Shown here: in pieces, positions 7,521 to 28,597 of the stretch
Layout: each line of letters begins with the position of its first letter
Position numbering within the stretch: the first letter of the stretch is position 1
IMG/VR virus record: IMGVR_UViG_3300037961_006528
Span: 1-28,597 of that record
Reading direction: 5' to 3' (one strand)
Length of the DNA: 28,597 bases
DNA from: a virus
Program-made: the position numbers and the translations under genes
The notes under the pieces: generated by a model
Database searches by the model: none
What the model was told of the DNA's origin: nothing
The model's input: the letters and a program-made list of their open reading frames with translations, nothing else

Positions 7521-9290
7521 ATGGCAGAAACATTAATATCTCCAGGTGTATTAGCAAGAGAAAATGATCAATCATTTATTCAAAATGCCCCAGCGGAATT
7601 TGGTGCTGCAGTTATAGGTCCTACCGTAAAAGGACCAGTTAGAGTTCCTACTCTAGTAACTTCCTATAGCTCATACATCAATATTTTTGGTGGTGCAGCA
7701 GAAAGTGGTTCAATTGATTATGGATACTTAACTAACGTAGCAGCAAATAATTATTTTAGACAAGGTGGAACTTCATTACTAGTAACAAGAGTAACACACG
7801 GAAGCTTCAGTTCAGCTTTTACTTCAGGTAGTACAGCTGGTTCAGGTAACTCGGGTATTTTAAATACCGCCACTTCTGAATCTTTCCAACTAGAAACTAT
7901 AAGTGAAGGAGCAATAATGAACAATTACCAAGCAGCAGATAGTGCTAATGGTACTTTAGATTCAGGTTCAGTTGATAATGTAAGATGGGAAATTTCAGGT
8001 GTAAATACTGGATCAGGAACATTTTCACTTATTGTTAGACAGGGTAATGATACGGCAACCCAGAAAAACATTTTAGAAACTTTTAACAATTTATCTTTGG
8101 ATCCCTTCCAAGATAATTATGTTGAAAAAGCAATTGGAAACCAAAAAAATACATTAAGAACAGATAGTGATGGAGTTGTTTATTTACAAACAACAGGTAG
8201 CTACGTTAACAAAAGTAGATATGTAAGAGTAAAACAAGTTTTACGTCCTACACCTCAGTTCTTTAATAACGCAGGTACACCAGCTTCAAGTTCAGCAGGA
8301 ATCCCATTTGTGGATTTTATACCTGTTGCAGGTTCAGGTTCATTTATTAGTGGATCTGGTGAAAATTTCCCTTCAGCAACATCACCTGCTAAATTTAATG
8401 AAAATATAACAAATGGTAATATTCAAGGTTTAACAGCTACTGATTATTCATCTTCAATTTCATTATTGAATAATAAAGATGATTATAATTTCAACGTTAT
8501 TACAATGCCAGGTTTAACTAATAATTTTGCAGCACATGCTACACAAATAAATTCATTAGTTTCATTAGCAGAAAATAGACAAGATTGTATAGCAGTAGTT
8601 GATGTACAAGCTTATGGTGCTACTGTAAGTGCTGTAACTACTCAAGCGGCAACGTTTGATTCTAGTTATGCAGCTGCTTATTGGCCTTGGGTTCAAGCAA
8701 CTGATCCATCAAGTGGACAAATTGTATGGGCTCCAGCTTCAGCATTTATACCAGGTGTTTATTCATTTACTGATCAATCTTCTGAACCATGGTTTGCACC
8801 AGCAGGTATGATTAGAGGAGCTTTAGGTAATGTAATTCAAGCAGAAAGAAAGTTAACTTCTTCACAAAGAGATACTTTATATTCTGCAAATGTAAACCCA
8901 ATCGCTTCATTCCCAGGAAGAGGAGTTGTAGTATTTGGACAGAAAACATTACAGAAAAGAGCAAGTGCTTTAGATAGAGTAAATGTTAGAAGATTATTAA
9001 TAGCTGTTAAAAGCTTCATATCTCAAATTGCGGATAACTTAGTATTTGAACAAAATACAATCGCTACAAGAAATAATTTCTTAAGTGAAGTTAACCCATA
9101 TTTAGAATCAGTTCAACAAAGACAAGGATTGTATGCGTTTAAAGTTGTAATGGACGAAACAAACAATACACCAGATGTTGTTGATAGAAATGAATTAGTA
9201 GGTGCTATTTATTTACAACCAACTAAAACAGCTGAATTTATTATATTGGATTTCAACGTACTGCCAACAGGAGTTGAGTTTCCAGCGTAA
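7521..9290 (+). CDS. 18: Tail sheath protein, T4 gp18-like
   Basis: The contractile sheath subunit; 589 residues (T4 gp18, 659). It begins with the typical sheath opening ISPGVLARENDQS (residues 6–18), followed by GPTVKGPVRVPTLVTS and the GGTSLLVTRV strand near residue 90. The C-terminal domain (about residues 430–589) is the most conserved part. It includes WFAPAGMIRG, FPGRGVVVFGQKTL, NVRRLLIAVKSFI and a closing ILDFNVLPTGVEFPA that provides the inter-subunit strand. The middle (about 95–330) is Ser/Gly/Thr-rich and variable, as usual for exposed sheath domains. The tube gene follows at once, as in all contractile-tail phages. Confidence 0.93.
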   Translation: MAETLISPGVLARENDQSFIQNAPAEFGAAVIGPTVKGPVRVPTLVTSYSSYINIFGGAAESGSIDYGYLTNVAANNYFRQGGTSLLVTRVTHGSFSSAFTSGSTAGSGNSGILNTATSESFQLETISEGAIMNNYQAADSANGTLDSGSVDNVRWEISGVNTGSGTFSLIVRQGNDTATQKNILETFNNLSLDPFQDNYVEKAIGNQKNTLRTDSDGVVYLQTTGSYVNKSRYVRVKQVLRPTPQFFNNAGTPASSSAGIPFVDFIPVAGSGSFISGSGENFPSATSPAKFNENITNGNIQGLTATDYSSSISLLNNKDDYNFNVITMPGLTNNFAAHATQINSLVSLAENRQDCIAVVDVQAYGATVSAVTTQAATFDSSYAAAYWPWVQATDPSSGQIVWAPASAFIPGVYSFTDQSSEPWFAPAGMIRGALGNVIQAERKLTSSQRDTLYSANVNPIASFPGRGVVVFGQKTLQKRASALDRVNVRRLLIAVKSFISQIADNLVFEQNTIATRNNFLSEVNPYLESVQQRQGLYAFKVVMDETNNTPDVVDRNELVGAIYLQPTKTAEFIILDFNVLPTGVEFPA

Positions 9291-9331: not shown

Positions 9332-9820
9332 ATGGCAATATTAGATCCAAACGAAATATTTTATACAGCTTTTGAGCCAAAGCAACAAAATAGATTTATC
9401 TTATATGTTGATGGAATACCTTCTTACCAAGTAAAAGGAGTAGGAGCTGTCTCACTAACTCAAGGTACAGTTCAATTAAATCATATCAACGTTGCAAGAT
9501 ATGTAAAAGGAAAAACTCTTTGGAATACAATTTCATTGACTTTATTCGATCCAATTACACCGTCAGGAGCTCAAGCGGTAATGGAATGGGTTAGATTGCA
9601 TCATGAATCAGTTACTGGTAGAGATGGTTACAGTGATTTCTATAAAAAAGATCTTACTTTCAATGTATTAGGACCAGTAGGAGATATAGTATCTGAATGG
9701 ATCATTAAAGGAGCTTTAATTACTGAAGCTGGATTTGGTGATTATAACTGGGATAATGAAAATGCTGCTCAAGAATTATCATTAACAGTACAACCAGATT
9801 ATTGTATCTTAAATTTCTAA
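9332..9820 (+). CDS. 19: Tail tube protein, T4 gp19-like
   Basis: The inner tail tube subunit; 162 residues, almost the same as T4 gp19 (163). The pattern NRFILYVDGIPSYQVKGVGA (residues 21–40) is followed by a strand pair (LWNTISLTLFDPITPSGAQA), the VMEWVRLHHE helix and a C-terminal ELSLTVQPDYCILNF. This is the usual tube fold order. It lies directly after the sheath gene and before a terminator, as expected for an abundant protein ending its transcription unit. Confidence 0.93.
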   Translation: MAILDPNEIFYTAFEPKQQNRFILYVDGIPSYQVKGVGAVSLTQGTVQLNHINVARYVKGKTLWNTISLTLFDPITPSGAQAVMEWVRLHHESVTGRDGYSDFYKKDLTFNVLGPVGDIVSEWIIKGALITEAGFGDYNWDNENAAQELSLTVQPDYCILNF

Positions 9821-9846: not shown

Positions 9847-9873
9847 AGCTTGGCCTCGCCAAGCTTTTTTTTT
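9847..9873 (+). terminator. Intrinsic terminator after tube gene
   Basis: A perfect 8-bp stem, AGCTTGGC / GCCAAGCT, with a 3-nt loop CTC is followed by nine T. It lies 26 nt past the tube stop codon and separates the abundant sheath/tube transcripts from the chaperone and tape-measure genes. Confidence 0.93.
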
Positions 9874-9912: not shown

Positions 9913-10641
9913 ATGGCAGAATTTAAATTCCCCACAGAAGTAATGGATTTACCTTCAAAAGGTAAAATATATCCTAATGAAAACCCTCTATCTTCAGGTA
10001 AAGTAGAAATGAAGTACATGACTGCTAAAGAAGAAGATATTTTAACTAACCAATCTTATATTCAAAAAGGTGTTGTTTTAGATAAATTATTAAAATCCTT
10101 AATTGTTGATAAAAATATTAATATTGATGATTTAATAGTTGGAGATAAAAATGCATTATTAGTAGGAAGTAGAATTTTGGGATATGGAAAAGATTATGAA
10201 GTATCAATAGGTGGTTCTAGCTATACTATTGATTTAAGTACTTTAGAAAATAAAGAAATTGATTTTGATTCTATAGAAAAGGGTAAAAATGAATTTAATT
10301 TTACTTTACCTTCTAATGATACTGTAATTACCTATAAATTATTAACAGGAAAAGATGAAAAATCAATTGATAGGGAAATTAGTGGTTTGAAAAAAATTAA
10401 TAAAGATTCATCCCCTGAACTTACAACCAGATTAAAACATATGATATTATCTGTAGATGGTAAGGAAGATAAAAAAGATATTAGGAATTTTGTTGATAAT
10501 TATTTCTTAGCCAGAGATTCTCGCGCTTTCAGAGAACATATTAAGAATACTCAACCAGATGTTGATTTAAATTATGTACTTGAAAGTGGAGAGGAGGTTG
10601 CAGTGCCCATAGGGCTCAACTTTTTTTGGCCTGACGCCTAA
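9913..10641 (+). CDS. 26: Tail/baseplate assembly chaperone, T4 gp26-like (unshifted product)
   Basis: A 242-residue protein placed between tube and tape-measure genes, the position of tail assembly chaperones in many tailed phages. The N-terminus carries FPTEVMDLPSKGKIYPNENP and KYMTAKEEDILTNQSYIQKG (residues 5–55), a pattern of T4-type gp26-like baseplate hub/assembly proteins. The product ends in the conserved-looking tail FFWPDA, which suggests the unshifted stop is genuine. A T7 run lies six codons before the stop codon, and a 108-codon frame without an early start follows in the +1 frame. The last 20 codons are markedly more GC-rich than the rest of the gene. Whether it acts as a gp26/gp51-like hub chaperone or a λ G-like tape-measure chaperone is inferred from position. 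Confidence 0.75.
   Translation: MAEFKFPTEVMDLPSKGKIYPNENPLSSGKVEMKYMTAKEEDILTNQSYIQKGVVLDKLLKSLIVDKNINIDDLIVGDKNALLVGSRILGYGKDYEVSIGGSSYTIDLSTLENKEIDFDSIEKGKNEFNFTLPSNDTVITYKLLTGKDEKSIDREISGLKKINKDSSPELTTRLKHMILSVDGKEDKKDIRNFVDNYFLARDSRAFREHIKNTQPDVDLNYVLESGEEVAVPIGLNFFWPDA
10588..10641 (+). promoter_or_regulatory. Putative +1/−2 programmed frameshift signal
   Basis: The 0 frame reads CTC AAC TTT TTT TGG CCT GAC GCC TAA; the run TTTTTTT is at 10621–10627. The +1 frame is closed by TAG at 10610–10612 and then open to 10954, so any shift must occur between 10613 and 10641. A single Phe-tRNA slip on TTT (+1, or −2) joins the frames, whereas −1 meets TGA at 10632. A Shine-Dalgarno-like GGAGAGGAGG (10588–10597) and a 4-bp GC hairpin GCCC-ATA-GGGC (10605–10615) lie just upstream. 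An indel error in the T run would look the same. Confidence 0.6.
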
Positions 10642-10954
10642 GACAGCTCCCCAAATTAGAAAAAATTTATTTACTCAAATACATAATATTGTTTTCCATG
10701 GTAATGGAGGGTATGATTATTATACTATCTATAATTTACCAATATGGTTAAGAAAATTTACTTTTTCGGAAATTGATAATTATAATAAAGAACAAAATAA
10801 AAAATACAAAGAAGCTCAGGAAGGAAAAGGAAAACAAACATTAGTTAACTCAGACGGAAAAATTAATACTCCTGAGTTTATGAAGGCTTCTGAACAATAT
10901 AAACAAGCCGAACAAAATCTAAAAACATTCAAAGGTAAAACAGGTTATAAGTAA
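10613..10954 (+). CDS. Frameshift extension of tail chaperone (T domain-like)
   Basis: This frame, +1 relative to the gp26-like gene, has no ATG until about 10879, so it is unlikely to be an independent gene. From 10628 it encodes about 108 residues starting GLTPKTAPQIRKNLF. It includes an IHNIVFHGNGGYDYYTIYN segment and IWLRKFTFSEI, then a charged helical tail ending FKGKTGYK. The codon pattern is clearly coding, and the frame fills most of the 337-nt space before the tape-measure gene. Joined to the upstream gene it gives a product of about 346 residues, matching the short/long chaperone pairs (λ G and GT). In T4 the comparable neighbour would be gene 51; homology to it is possible but not shown. 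Confidence 0.65.
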   Translation, partial: GSTFFGLTPKTAPQIRKNLFTQIHNIVFHGNGGYDYYTIYNLPIWLRKFTFSEIDNYNKEQNKKYKEAQEGKGKQTLVNSDGKINTPEFMKASEQYKQAEQNLKTFKGKTGYK

Positions 10955-10978: not shown

Positions 10979-13378
10979 ATGGCTAAATTAGAAGATGTTA
11001 AAAAGCAATTAGCCGAGTTACAAAAACTATATAATGAACTCGGCCAGAATAATCCATTTGCAAATATGGACCCTAAAGTAATTGCTAACTCAGCCTCTGA
11101 AGCTGAAAAACTTTCCAGAGTTTTAAAGAATGTTAGAGAAGAAGTTGATGAAATTAATTCAACATTCGGAGATATTCAAAAAAGAGTTGCATCTCAATTA
11201 GCAGACCTATCTAAAGCTGCTTCCCCCGCTAATAAATTAACTCGTGCCTATGCTAGTATGGATAAATCCTTATCTAAATTAGTACTAGATGAAAAAGATA
11301 TTGAAAAACTTAATACTAAGCAATTAAAAACAATAGAAAAGAAAGCAAAAGCAGATAAAGAACAAGCAATTGCATCTTCAAAAGCATTATTAGCTGACAA
11401 GGGAATTTATAATGAAATAACAAAAGAAATAGACTTAGCTAAAGCTGAAAGAATGCAGCTTACTGAAGAGGAACAAGCTGCTGTAGGTTTGCTTACTAAA
11501 CAAGATAAAAACTTTGATACTTTAATTGCTAAGATTAAAAAAAGAAGGTTAGAAGAAGAAAGAGTTGCAGAAGCTACTTCTCTTACTGGTGCGGCCGTAG
11601 GAGGTATAGAAAGTGCTTTAAATAAAGCTGGTTTTGGTGATTTAGCTAAAAAACTTGGTTTTGAGGAAGCTGCTGAGGATATGGATACCTTAGCAAGAAA
11701 ACTTACTGATGGAGGAAAAGCTGCAGCTGATGGAAATGATAAAGCTAAAATTTTTGGTAAAGGATTAAAAACTTTAGGTAAAAATTTAGTAGAAAATTTA
11801 AAAGATCCTTTAGTTGCGTCTGTAGTTGCTGTTAAATTATTATCAGCTGTATTTACACCTTTATTTAAACTTGCATCTGCTTTAGATAAATCTTCAGGTG
11901 AATTAGCTAAAAACATGAACATGACCTATGATGAGGCTGTTCTATTAAATGATCAATTAGCTGAAGTTTCTTCTACTCATTTAAGGGATTCTTTAGTAAG
12001 TTCAAAAGGTTTATCAGAAAGTTTAATGGAAATAAACAAAACATTAGGTACTAATGTAATGTTAAACCAAGAAGATTTAGTTACATTTACTAAATTAAGA
12101 GAAGCAGCAGGATTTACTAATGAAGAGTTAATGGGCATTCAGCAATTAACTTTAGCTAATGGACAATCATTAAAACAAAATACAGGGGAATTTTTAGCTC
12201 AAGCTAAAGTTTCAGCAATGCAAAATGGTGTATTGCTTAATGAAAAAGAATTATTAAAAGGAATAAGTGAAGTTTCTGCTGCAACAACTTTATCATTTGG
12301 TAAAAATCCTAAATTAATTGCTGATGCTGTTGCTCAAGCAAAATCATTAGGTATGGAACTTGACCAAGTTGATGCTATAGCGGATAGTTTACTTAATTTT
12401 GAACAATCTATTGCTAATGAATTAGAAGCTGAATTAATGTTAGGTCAAAGTATTAATTTAGAAAAAGCAAGACAAGCAGCATTAGACAATGATTTAGCAA
12501 CTTTAGCAAAAGAAATTTCAACCCAAGTTGGCTCAGCAGCTGAATTTGGTGAAATGAATAGAATACAACAGGATGCATTAGCCAAATCTGTTGGAATGAC
12601 TAGACAAGATTTAGCACAAACCCTATTTGTTCAAGAACAATTAGCTGGAGCAACGGGAGAAGAAGCAGAAAGAAGACAAGCTATATTAGATAAAAGGATA
12701 GAAGAGGTTGGATTAGCTCAAGCTCAAAAAGAAATTGCAAAAGATGGATTAAAAGGTTTAGAAAGTCAAGCTTCGATTGCTGAAAGATTAGAAAAGACTG
12801 GTAAAAAAATAAAAGATACTTTTATGGGGTTTGCTGCCGTTATTTTAGAAGTTGTTTCTCCTTTAGTAGATATTATTCTTCCTGTTTTTAATGGTATTGC
12901 AGCTGCTGTTAAATTAGTTTTTGAAGGTTTATCTACAATACTTCCACTTATTAAAGGTTTAGGTATTGCTTTAGCAATAATGAATATACCACTTATGATA
13001 AATGCAGTCCTCTCTATTTTTAGAGGAGCATTTTTAGCTTTAAAAAATCCACTTATCGCTATTCCAGCAGCTTTAGCTGGTATTGCTTTAATGAAAAGGG
13101 CAATGAAAGCGGATGATATGGTTTCACTTGGTGATAATCAAGCAGGATATGGAAAAAGAACTTTAATAGCACCTGAAGGAGCAATAGCATTAAATAATAA
13201 AGATACTATAATTGCTGGAACAAATTTATTTGGAAGAGCTGATGATATGATTTCGGCTCCAAAAGGTACAGTGAATTTAGGTAAAAATACAAAAACTGAT
13301 ATGTTATTAGAAACATTAGTTAGACAAAATGCTAAAAAACCTCAAATATCACCTGTAGGTTTATATGAGGTTCAATAG
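10979..13378 (+). CDS. Tail tape-measure protein
   Basis: A 799-residue protein that sets tail length and is probably injected with the DNA (role of T4 gp29, 590 residues). Residues 1–270 are Lys/Glu/Ala-rich and coiled-coil-like. A hydrophobic segment lies at about 277–303 and a large hydrophobic region at about 617–705, typical of tape measures. The C-terminal ~80 residues have the Gly-rich ADDMVSLGD… GYGKRTLIAPEGAIALNN… ADDMISAPKGTVN pattern often found at tape-measure ends in Bacteroidetes phages. It follows the putative frameshifted chaperone directly, the classic arrangement. No peptidase or lysozyme domain is visible. Residues 340–600 are helical and Ala/Gln-rich with no recognised motif. 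Confidence 0.85.
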   Translation: MAKLEDVKKQLAELQKLYNELGQNNPFANMDPKVIANSASEAEKLSRVLKNVREEVDEINSTFGDIQKRVASQLADLSKAASPANKLTRAYASMDKSLSKLVLDEKDIEKLNTKQLKTIEKKAKADKEQAIASSKALLADKGIYNEITKEIDLAKAERMQLTEEEQAAVGLLTKQDKNFDTLIAKIKKRRLEEERVAEATSLTGAAVGGIESALNKAGFGDLAKKLGFEEAAEDMDTLARKLTDGGKAAADGNDKAKIFGKGLKTLGKNLVENLKDPLVASVVAVKLLSAVFTPLFKLASALDKSSGELAKNMNMTYDEAVLLNDQLAEVSSTHLRDSLVSSKGLSESLMEINKTLGTNVMLNQEDLVTFTKLREAAGFTNEELMGIQQLTLANGQSLKQNTGEFLAQAKVSAMQNGVLLNEKELLKGISEVSAATTLSFGKNPKLIADAVAQAKSLGMELDQVDAIADSLLNFEQSIANELEAELMLGQSINLEKARQAALDNDLATLAKEISTQVGSAAEFGEMNRIQQDALAKSVGMTRQDLAQTLFVQEQLAGATGEEAERRQAILDKRIEEVGLAQAQKEIAKDGLKGLESQASIAERLEKTGKKIKDTFMGFAAVILEVVSPLVDIILPVFNGIAAAVKLVFEGLSTILPLIKGLGIALAIMNIPLMINAVLSIFRGAFLALKNPLIAIPAALAGIALMKRAMKADDMVSLGDNQAGYGKRTLIAPEGAIALNNKDTIIAGTNLFGRADDMISAPKGTVNLGKNTKTDMLLETLVRQNAKKPQISPVGLYEVQ

Positions 13379-26642: not shown

Positions 26643-27629
26643 ATGGCAAAAAAATCTTTAATAAAAGAACGTATTGTTTATAAACCATTTGAATATCCAA
26701 AGGCTTTTGATTTCTATATGAAACAACAGCAAGCACATTGGCTTTGGACAGAAGTACCTATGATGGCGGATGTAAACGATTGGAAACAAAACTTAACAGA
26801 AACAGAAAAAAACATAATAGGATCCATACTTAAAGGATTTGCTCAAACAGAAACAGTAGTAAATGATTATTGGTCTACATTAGTAACAAAATGGTTTAGA
26901 AAACCTGAAGTAATTGCAATGGCTGTAACTTTTGGTTGTTTTGAAACTATTCATGCTGAAGCTTATTCTTTACTTAATGAAGAATTAGGATTGGATAATT
27001 TTGAGGAGTTTTTAGAAGATGAAACTACAATGGCTAAGATAGAAAATTTAATGAATGTAAGAGATGATCATGATGGTAATCCTGATTGGCATGAAAGAGC
27101 TAAATCATTAGCTATATTTTCTGCATTTACTGAAGGAGTAAATTTATTTTCTTCATTTGCAGTTTTATTATCTTTTAAACTTAGAAATTTACTTAAAGGA
27201 GTAGGTCAAATAGTAGAATGGAGTATTAGAGATGAATCTTTACATTCAAATGCTGGATGTTGGTTATTTAGAACTTTATTAAAAGAAAATCCTGAATTAG
27301 ATACTCCTGAATTAAAAGCACAAATTGAAGAAGCTGCTCATTTATCTTTAAAATTAGAATTAGATTTTATTGATAAAGTTTATGAAATGGGAGATTTAGA
27401 AGGATGTTCTAAATATGATTTAGTTTCTTTTATAAAACATAGAATTAATACTAAAATGGGTGATTTAGGTTATGGTCCTATTGTAAATGGTATTGATGAA
27501 GAAGCAGTACAAAGAATGAGTTGGTTTGATAGCTTATCAGCGGGAAAACAACATACAGATTTCTTTGCAAATAGAGTAACAAATTATAGTAAAGGTGTTC
27601 AAAATTGGGATGCCGCTGATTTATTTTAA
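26643..27629 (+). CDS. nrdB: Class I ribonucleotide reductase small subunit, NrdB
   Basis: Generates the radical used by NrdA to make deoxynucleotides. It is 328 residues (E. coli NrdB 376). Metal ligands can be traced: Asp46 (NDWKQNL), Glu101 and His104 (FETIHAEAY), Glu164 (TEGVNLFSSF), and Glu198 and His201 (IRDESLH). The radical tyrosine is Tyr108, four residues after His104. The protein therefore looks intact and of the tyrosyl-radical type. The C-terminus ends DAADLF, a flexible acidic tail for NrdA docking. One base separates it from the start of the nrdA 5' fragment. Confidence 0.93.
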   Translation: MAKKSLIKERIVYKPFEYPKAFDFYMKQQQAHWLWTEVPMMADVNDWKQNLTETEKNIIGSILKGFAQTETVVNDYWSTLVTKWFRKPEVIAMAVTFGCFETIHAEAYSLLNEELGLDNFEEFLEDETTMAKIENLMNVRDDHDGNPDWHERAKSLAIFSAFTEGVNLFSSFAVLLSFKLRNLLKGVGQIVEWSIRDESLHSNAGCWLFRTLLKENPELDTPELKAQIEEAAHLSLKLELDFIDKVYEMGDLEGCSKYDLVSFIKHRINTKMGDLGYGPIVNGIDEEAVQRMSWFDSLSAGKQHTDFFANRVTNYSKGVQNWDAADLF

Positions 27630-27630
27630 T

Positions 27631-27873
27631 ATGGATAATAATTTAATAGTAGATTATAGTGATTGGACCCCAGGAAAAGAATATCCTGAGTGGATGGATG
27701 AAATTTCACTAGCAACAATATCAAAGGGATATTTACTCCCAGGTGAAACAGTAAAACAAGCTTATAGAAGAGTAGCTAATGCAGCTGCTGAAAGATTAAA
27801 AAAGCCTGAATTAGCAAATAAATTTTTTAGATATATTTGGAATGGTTGGATCGGTCTTGCATCTCTGAATTAA
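27631..27873 (+). CDS. nrdA: Ribonucleotide reductase large subunit, N-terminal fragment (broken nrdA)
   Basis: An 80-residue fragment starting at ATG 27631, one base after the nrdB stop. It matches the start of the catalytic domain of NrdA/NrdE-type large subunits: LATISKGYLLPGETVKQAYR, a RVANAAAERL helix and NKFFRYIWNGWIGLAS. It then ends with LN and TAA where family members continue PVLSNTG…ISCF. No ATP-cone domain precedes it. The remainder resumes in another frame at 27873, after a loss of roughly 30–40 residues. The fragment alone cannot be an enzyme. An upstream in-frame ATG inside nrdB (27595) exists but would add residues unlike the family. Confidence 0.8.
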   Translation: MDNNLIVDYSDWTPGKEYPEWMDEISLATISKGYLLPGETVKQAYRRVANAAAERLKKPELANKFFRYIWNGWIGLASLN

Positions 27874-28597
27874 TGAGATTAACTTCTAAAGGAGGTGGTG
27901 TTGGTATTAGTGTTTCAAGAATTAGACCTCGAGGAAATGAAATAACAGGAAATGGTAAGTCTGAAGGTGTGGTACCTTGGTGTAAAATTTATGATTCATC
28001 TATTATAGCTACTAACCAGGGTAATGTAAGAAGAGGAGCAGCATCTGTTAACTTAGATATTGAACATCCAGATATAGATGAATTTTTAGAAATAAGAAGA
28101 CCTAAAGGTGATGTTAACAGACAATGTTTGAATTTACATCAATGTGTAGTTGTTGGAGATAATTTCATGCGTAAATTAGAAGCAAGAGATTCAGAAGCAA
28201 TGAATAGATGGGCTAAAATTCTTAAAGCTAGAATGGAAACAGGAGAACCTTATATTATGTTTAAAGATAATGTAAATAAAAATAATCCTATAGCTTATAG
28301 AATGAATAATTTAGATGTTACTATGACTAATATTTGTAGTGAAATTACTTTATTTACTGATGAATGGCATTCATTTATTTGTTGTTTATCTTCTCTTAAT
28401 TTAGCTAAATGGGATGAATTTAAAGATACAGATTGTATTCAAACTGCTATTTGGTTTTTAGATGGTGTAATGGAAGAATTTATACAAAAATCTAATGGTA
28501 AAGATTCATTAGTTAGAACTCATAATCATGCTAAAAAAGGTAGAGCATTAGGTTTAGGTGTAATGGGATGGCATACTTTTTTACAACAGAAAAATTT
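27873..28597 (+). CDS. nrdA: Ribonucleotide reductase large subunit, C-terminal part (runs off window)
   Basis: The frame open from ATG 27873 (overlapping the previous TAA by one base) to the window end encodes at least 241 residues. It starts MRLTSKGGGVGISVSRIRPRG, the NrdA segment just after the first active-site cysteine. It continues with GNVRRGAASVNLDIEHPDID, GEPYIMFKDNVNK and TNICSEITLF. The last holds the Asn-x-Cys-x-Glu active-site triad, and the following ICCLSSLNL holds the second redox cysteine. The end AKKGRALGLGVMGWHTF is also typical. Thus Asn, radical Cys, Glu and second redox Cys are present, but the first redox Cys (E. coli Cys225) falls in the missing part. This is either a split gene or one broken by deletion or misassembly. 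Confidence 0.82.
   Translation, partial: MRLTSKGGGVGISVSRIRPRGNEITGNGKSEGVVPWCKIYDSSIIATNQGNVRRGAASVNLDIEHPDIDEFLEIRRPKGDVNRQCLNLHQCVVVGDNFMRKLEARDSEAMNRWAKILKARMETGEPYIMFKDNVNKNNPIAYRMNNLDVTMTNICSEITLFTDEWHSFICCLSSLNLAKWDEFKDTDCIQTAIWFLDGVMEEFIQKSNGKDSLVRTHNHAKKGRALGLGVMGWHTFLQQKN

Follow-up and report, generated by a model that had tools for sequence, protein, structure and literature searches.

Organization of the tail chaperone locus

The DNA analysed here (the window, 28,597 nucleotides in length) represents part of the genome of a T4-like myovirus, with gp23-type capsid, sheath and tube genes. A gp26-like gene, denoted G, lies between the tail tube and tape measure genes, the position expected of a lambda-type G/GT gene, and overlaps a second reading frame, denoted T, in the +1 register (Table 1). 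Among the relatives listed, the gap to the tape measure start is ≈ 24 to 43 nt.

Table 1. Tail genes and associated elements in the window
Feature	Position	Strand	Product and evidence
Tail sheath gene	7521..9290	+	PF04984, 1.9e-18
Tail tube gene (gp19-like)	9332..9820	+	PHROG_4542, 2.6e-22
Intrinsic-terminator-like hairpin and T run, between tube and G genes	9847..9873	+	
G-like tail assembly chaperone gene (gp26-like)	9913..10641	+	242 aa zero-frame product; PHROG_150, PF12322, AF2, BFVD
Putative shift site TTT TTT TGG C	10621..10630	+	202 distinct junctions share the NTT TGG C core
T-like domain, +1 frame	10628..10954	+	108 aa without usable start codon; predicted GT fusion 346 aa
Tape measure protein gene	10979..13378	+	Match to annotated tape measure protein of Flavobacterium phage immuto, 2e-40

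The zero-frame product of G ends in ...PIGLNFFWPDA. An open +1 frame runs from 10613 to its stop codon at 10952-10954, and the -1 frame is closed by a TGA at 10632-10634. The first-pass annotation had given G and the +1 frame these same limits, had placed them between tube and tape measure genes and had excluded a -1 mode; all of this was confirmed. It was also right that the +1 frame has no early start, since the first ATG is codon 84 and GTG and TTG are absent. The FFWPDA ending, regarded there as a plausible native C-terminus, is part of a zero-frame tail beyond the slip point (WP, then usually D or E) that is conserved in relatives.

Beyond the zero-frame stop, purifying selection acts on the +1 frame. 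The dN/dS of the T region was ≈ 0.27 to 0.29 in the +1 frame; when the same DNA was read in the two alternative frames, the values were 1.18 and 1.32, so the open frame is not due to chance. The corresponding value for G was 0.25. In the complete genomes of Flavobacterium phage immuto and Microcystis phage Mel-JY01, G and T each have a single match, and the two matches are adjacent.

Two further features of the window were noted. A terminator-like hairpin similar to that between the tube and G genes is found in 64 of 91 relatives, and one is annotated at the same place in Bacillus phage SP-15 (L092). Such a hairpin could lower the expression of the chaperone relative to that of the tube. At 27595-28595, the NrdA gene is interrupted: the reading frame changes near 27850, and ≈ 33 residues including the GLPISC segment are absent by comparison with phage immuto (L381). 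The break is either a deletion or an assembly fault.

A conserved YTT TGG C junction

The T7 run of the window occupies positions 10621-10627, and TTTTTTTGGCCTGA occurs once against 0.01 expected by chance. In the zero frame, TTT (10624-10626) would be the P-site codon and TGG (10627-10629) the A-site codon; if T10627 is skipped, the +1 frame resumes at GGC (10628-10630). Scanning of IMG/VR yielded 80 relatives, nearly all of which read TTT TTT TGG CCT GA at the junction and keep the +1 frame open for 86 to 104 codons beyond the zero-frame stop. The exceptions were L003, in which the frame break lies farther upstream, L010, for which the scripted analysis gave no usable frame, L059, with an early stop that is absent from its near-relative L060, and a few contigs that end too early.

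After further scans, an in-frame NTT TGG C was on record for 202 distinct junctions (156 with TTTTTTTGGC, 32 with TTTCTTTGGC, 11 with TTCTTTTGGC and 3 with CTTTTTTGGC). The A-site codon is TGG in all 202. The codon before it is TTT or CTT, and the tRNA on either can move forward by one base to pair with UUU, so that every variant permits a +1 shift in the P site. A handful of additional relatives have TTT CTA TGG or YTT TAC at the junction; with TTT CTA, re-pairing of UUU onto UUC is also possible. Microcystis phage Mel-JY01 and Rhodothermus phage RM378 carry TTT TTT TGG. The cultured phage immuto, in which T is annotated only as a fragment, has TTT CTT TGG C and no T7 run; the predicted tryptic peptide across its shift is FFPEDGPDGGVDIPIGVSFLGLTPEYR. 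By comparison of these junctions, the conserved core is [C/T]TT TGG C and the full T7 run is dispensable. The T7 run, proposed in the first-pass annotation as the slip signal, is not the signal: both frames are conserved among related phages but the complete run is not.

Three Firmicute phages, Streptococcus phage GXN1, Listeria phage LIS04 and Bacillus phage SP-15 (L085, L087 and L092), have xCC CGA TT near the end of G together with an open +1 frame. The GXN1 site fits a slip on CCC C. Candidate slip sites in SP-15 and LIS04 are GCC CGA, ACC CGA or an upstream TTT TTT.

A programmed shift into the +1 register of a tail chaperone-type gene, as first proposed from the window, is thus strongly supported by conservation, with 202 distinct junctions and selection on the T frame. 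The direction had been left as +1 or -2. Both lead to the same frame, and the TTTTTTT of the window permits a Mu-like slip in which the tRNA re-pairs two bases back; the product would contain NFFFGL instead of NFFGL, one residue more. At the 11 distinct TTC TTT TGG junctions, however, a -2 slip would place tRNA-Phe on UCU with a mismatch in the middle position, and the CCC CGA T of GXN1 would require re-pairing with GUC. The GXN1, TTC TTT and CTT sites are all compatible with +1 re-pairing. Because -2 re-pairing fails at the sites of some relatives, +1 is favoured, and we consider a -2 slip very unlikely.

Alternatively, T might be translated separately, by an internal start or by coupling, without any shift. 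In L186/L200, in L191 and in the huge phage L088, T is indeed an ATG-started gene of its own directly behind G, in the -1 frame, and the cyanophage gp51 is likewise annotated with its own ATG. In the window, however, the first possible start comes only at codon 84, and 76 of 90 relatives lack a start within the first 15 T codons. Moreover, T codons 6 to 29, which lie upstream of the usual first ATG, have a pN/pS of 0.31 in the +1 frame versus 1.30 and 1.78 in the other two. Since these codons are selected in the +1 frame, mostly with no start ahead of them, a shift from G accounts for them most simply, and separate translation of T is highly improbable as the general explanation.

No relative with one uninterrupted ORF, an outcome that would have told against the first-pass proposal, was found; a few carry T as a separate gene instead. 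The predicted fusion of G and T is thus common but not universal. Among those with a separate gene, L191 retains CTT TGG C where G ends, but its +1 frame runs for only five codons. In Pseudomonas phage Cygsa01, there is a TAATG stop-start overlap and no heptamer.

RNA polymerase might instead slip on the T run and give rise to a mixed mRNA population, as a T7 within an AT-rich gene might do to some extent. The arrangement is nevertheless kept with TTTCTTT or CTTTT, which are too short for efficient slippage, and this explanation is scarcely credible. A homopolymer miscount or a broken gene, with a single continuous ORF as the true gene, can practically be dismissed: errors are typical at T7 runs and the data come mostly from metagenome contigs, but the identical frame break recurs in 202 distinct junctions, including those with only four T (TTC TTT TGG), it is present in the isolate immuto, and the zero-frame tail after the slip is conserved as well.

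Two predicted chaperones from one gene

We estimate a probability of about 0.9 that the locus makes two tail assembly chaperones, G and GT, from a single gene by +1 frameshifting. Most ribosomes would terminate at the zero-frame stop and release G. At UUU-UGG-C, some would slip when the P-site tRNA-Phe moves one base forward onto the overlapping UUU; GGC would then be decoded and translation would continue, through 108 codons, to yield GT. The two frames and the selection on them, the lack of a start codon, the conserved site and the homology to gp26/gp51 are observed; shifting at this site, its direction and the ratio of the products are inferred from sequence. By analogy with lambda, we infer the binding roles as well: a coat of G on the tape measure protein, with tube subunits recruited through the T part of GT.

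The likeness to lambda G/GT extends to the layout. In both, the first ORF is overlapped at its end by a second one that lies in a different frame and lacks a start codon, and in both there is a conserved slip site with coding in the two frames. The usual, though not universal, slippery heptamer for a -1 shift is replaced in the window, where the -1 frame is closed, by the putative +1 site YTT TGG C. A +1 mode in a G/GT-type gene has a precedent in the haloarchaeal myovirus HSTV-2, whose tail chaperone is very likely made by a +1 shift (cited in PMC5009743); its host group is unrelated.

The core also resembles a cellular recoding site. The +1 frameshift site of RF2 (prfB) is CUU UGA C. It has in common with [C/T]TT TGG C a P-site YUU followed by U, re-pairing on UUU and a C after the A-site codon. 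The A-site codon of RF2 is the stop codon UGA, whereas that of the window group is UGG, an ordinary sense codon; the Shine-Dalgarno-like stimulator located ≈ 3 nt upstream in RF2 has no evident counterpart at that position in the +1 group, and no autoregulation is implied. In tests of prfB-type sites (RF2 context), CCC and UUU ranked directly behind CUU in +1 slipperiness (PMC10885494). Downstream RNA in the +1 group was as stable as shuffled sequence (mean z between 0.05 and -0.23), and a pausing signal was found neither in RNA structure nor at the RF2 position. The only conserved G tract, at -12 to -10, was considered as a stimulator and rejected, ending 10 nt upstream, which is too far, and missing in about one-third of relatives.

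Relation to T4 gp26 and gp51

Window G matched PHROG_150 (E 9.4e-8) and reached 23.0 bits with PF12322 (E 7e-5), just under the cut-off of 24.5. Bacillus phage SP-15 links the two, matching both the window G profile (5e-25) and PF12322 (1.5e-29). A PF12322 search of the window's record gave no match in the window or in the controls and was given no weight. G and T were modelled separately. The AF2 model of G had a pLDDT of 91, and its BFVD matches were gp26 proteins of T4-like phages. On re-alignment to 789 PDB chains, the best match was the HK97 tail assembly chaperone 2ob9 with a modest and only suggestive Z of 4.3 (rmsd 3.3, 75 of 104 residues; the runner-up had a Z of 2.5). Foldseek found no significant match for the G model in the PDB, and sequence searches of the PDB with the G and T profiles returned chance matches only.

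The T model was of modest confidence (pLDDT 73) and had no Foldseek match in the PDB. A Pfam scan of T gave recurrent but individually insignificant matches to DUF6760 and Phage_TAC_13. Members of the T alignment gave weak but recurrent matches to PHROG_32580 'tail assembly chaperone' (16 of 42) and PHROG_634 'baseplate hub assembly catalyst' (9 of 42).

These matches place window G, unlike lambda G, in the gp26/gp51 family of T4, so that the finding is wider than the first-pass annotation had claimed. T4 gp26 and gp51 are baseplate hub assembly chaperones that are required for hub assembly and absent from the particle (PMC3004832). Both match PF12322 and PHROG_150, and gp51 has an extra C-terminal part. 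There are two PF12322 copies in T4 and one each in P-SSM2, KVP40 and SP-15. As judged from these profiles, T4 gp26 and gp51 are paralogues with a G domain homologous to that of the window, gp26 being G-like and gp51 consisting of G plus a T-like tail. T4 has two genes and no frameshift where the window has one gene and a predicted shift.

In cyanophages and vibriophages, gp51 lacks the first ≈ 200 residues and resembles the C-terminus of T4 gp51, as described in a part of Sullivan et al. 2010 (PMC3037559) that mentions no frameshift for this short protein. In P-SSM2, S-SM2, KVP40, Atu_ph07 and Rhizobium phage IC12, we found that the -1 frame behind gp26 encodes the short gp51 or a counterpart of it, and all five carry T TTT TTC where gp26 ends. 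As in the window, an ORF of the size of T comes directly after G in a different frame and a T run ends G; these pairs differ from the window group in that the frame is -1 and T has an ATG.

Among the relatives of P-SSM2 gp26, TTT TTC is preceded by T in 80 of 80, even where the preceding amino acid differs. In the P-SSM2-type group, the 50 nt downstream have a stability well above that of shuffled sequence (mean z -3.3), whereas the +1 group has no downstream structure. The hairpin begins six bases after the heptamer and encloses the annotated gp51 start codon. Its stem is conserved but not proven by covariation: 94% of cells are paired and two are compensatory, and one pair is unpaired in 16 of 41. 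S-SM2, Atu_ph07 and KVP40 fold differently 3' of the heptamer. The cyanophage gp26/gp51 junction looks like an unannotated -1 frameshift signal. The same elements (T TTT TTC, a six-base spacer and a stable hairpin enclosing the gp51 ATG) are present at L090:3199-3258 and in ≈ 40 distinct relatives (alignment A4).

Profile similarity between the T domains of the +1 group and the gp51-type T domains of the -1 group is weak (hhalign 62%, E 7e-5), and the equivalence of these domains is judged mainly by their position behind a homologous G. T4-type phages thus probably make G and GT in three ways: by a +1 shift at YTT TGG C (the window group), by a -1 shift at T TTT TTC (cyanophages, KVP40 and the Agrobacterium and Rhizobium phages) and by duplication (T4, with gp26 as G and gp51 as GT). 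In that case, decoding would have changed direction inside a single homologous gene, with the same two products retained.

The G-T frameshift has been described as widely conserved 'except T4' (2016 Atkins review, PMC5009743), and a literature search of open papers found no description of a gp26/gp51 frameshift. From our comparison, T4-type phages seem to be no exception and to make, like other tailed phages, a short and a long tail chaperone. If true, this would remove the best-known exception to the assembly rule of tailed phages. It would also assign a concrete function to T4 gp26 and gp51, which have long carried the label of hub assembly chaperones with no mechanism attached. Deposited gp51 genes, and small hypothetical ORFs located behind gp26, are probably in many cases misannotated portions of fusion proteins. 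In the window group, a putative +1 shift site with a sense codon is conserved in many phages from marine and fresh waters, and a single gene position that would reach the same outcome by +1, by -1, by duplication or by separate genes may serve as a model for the origin and replacement of recoding signals.
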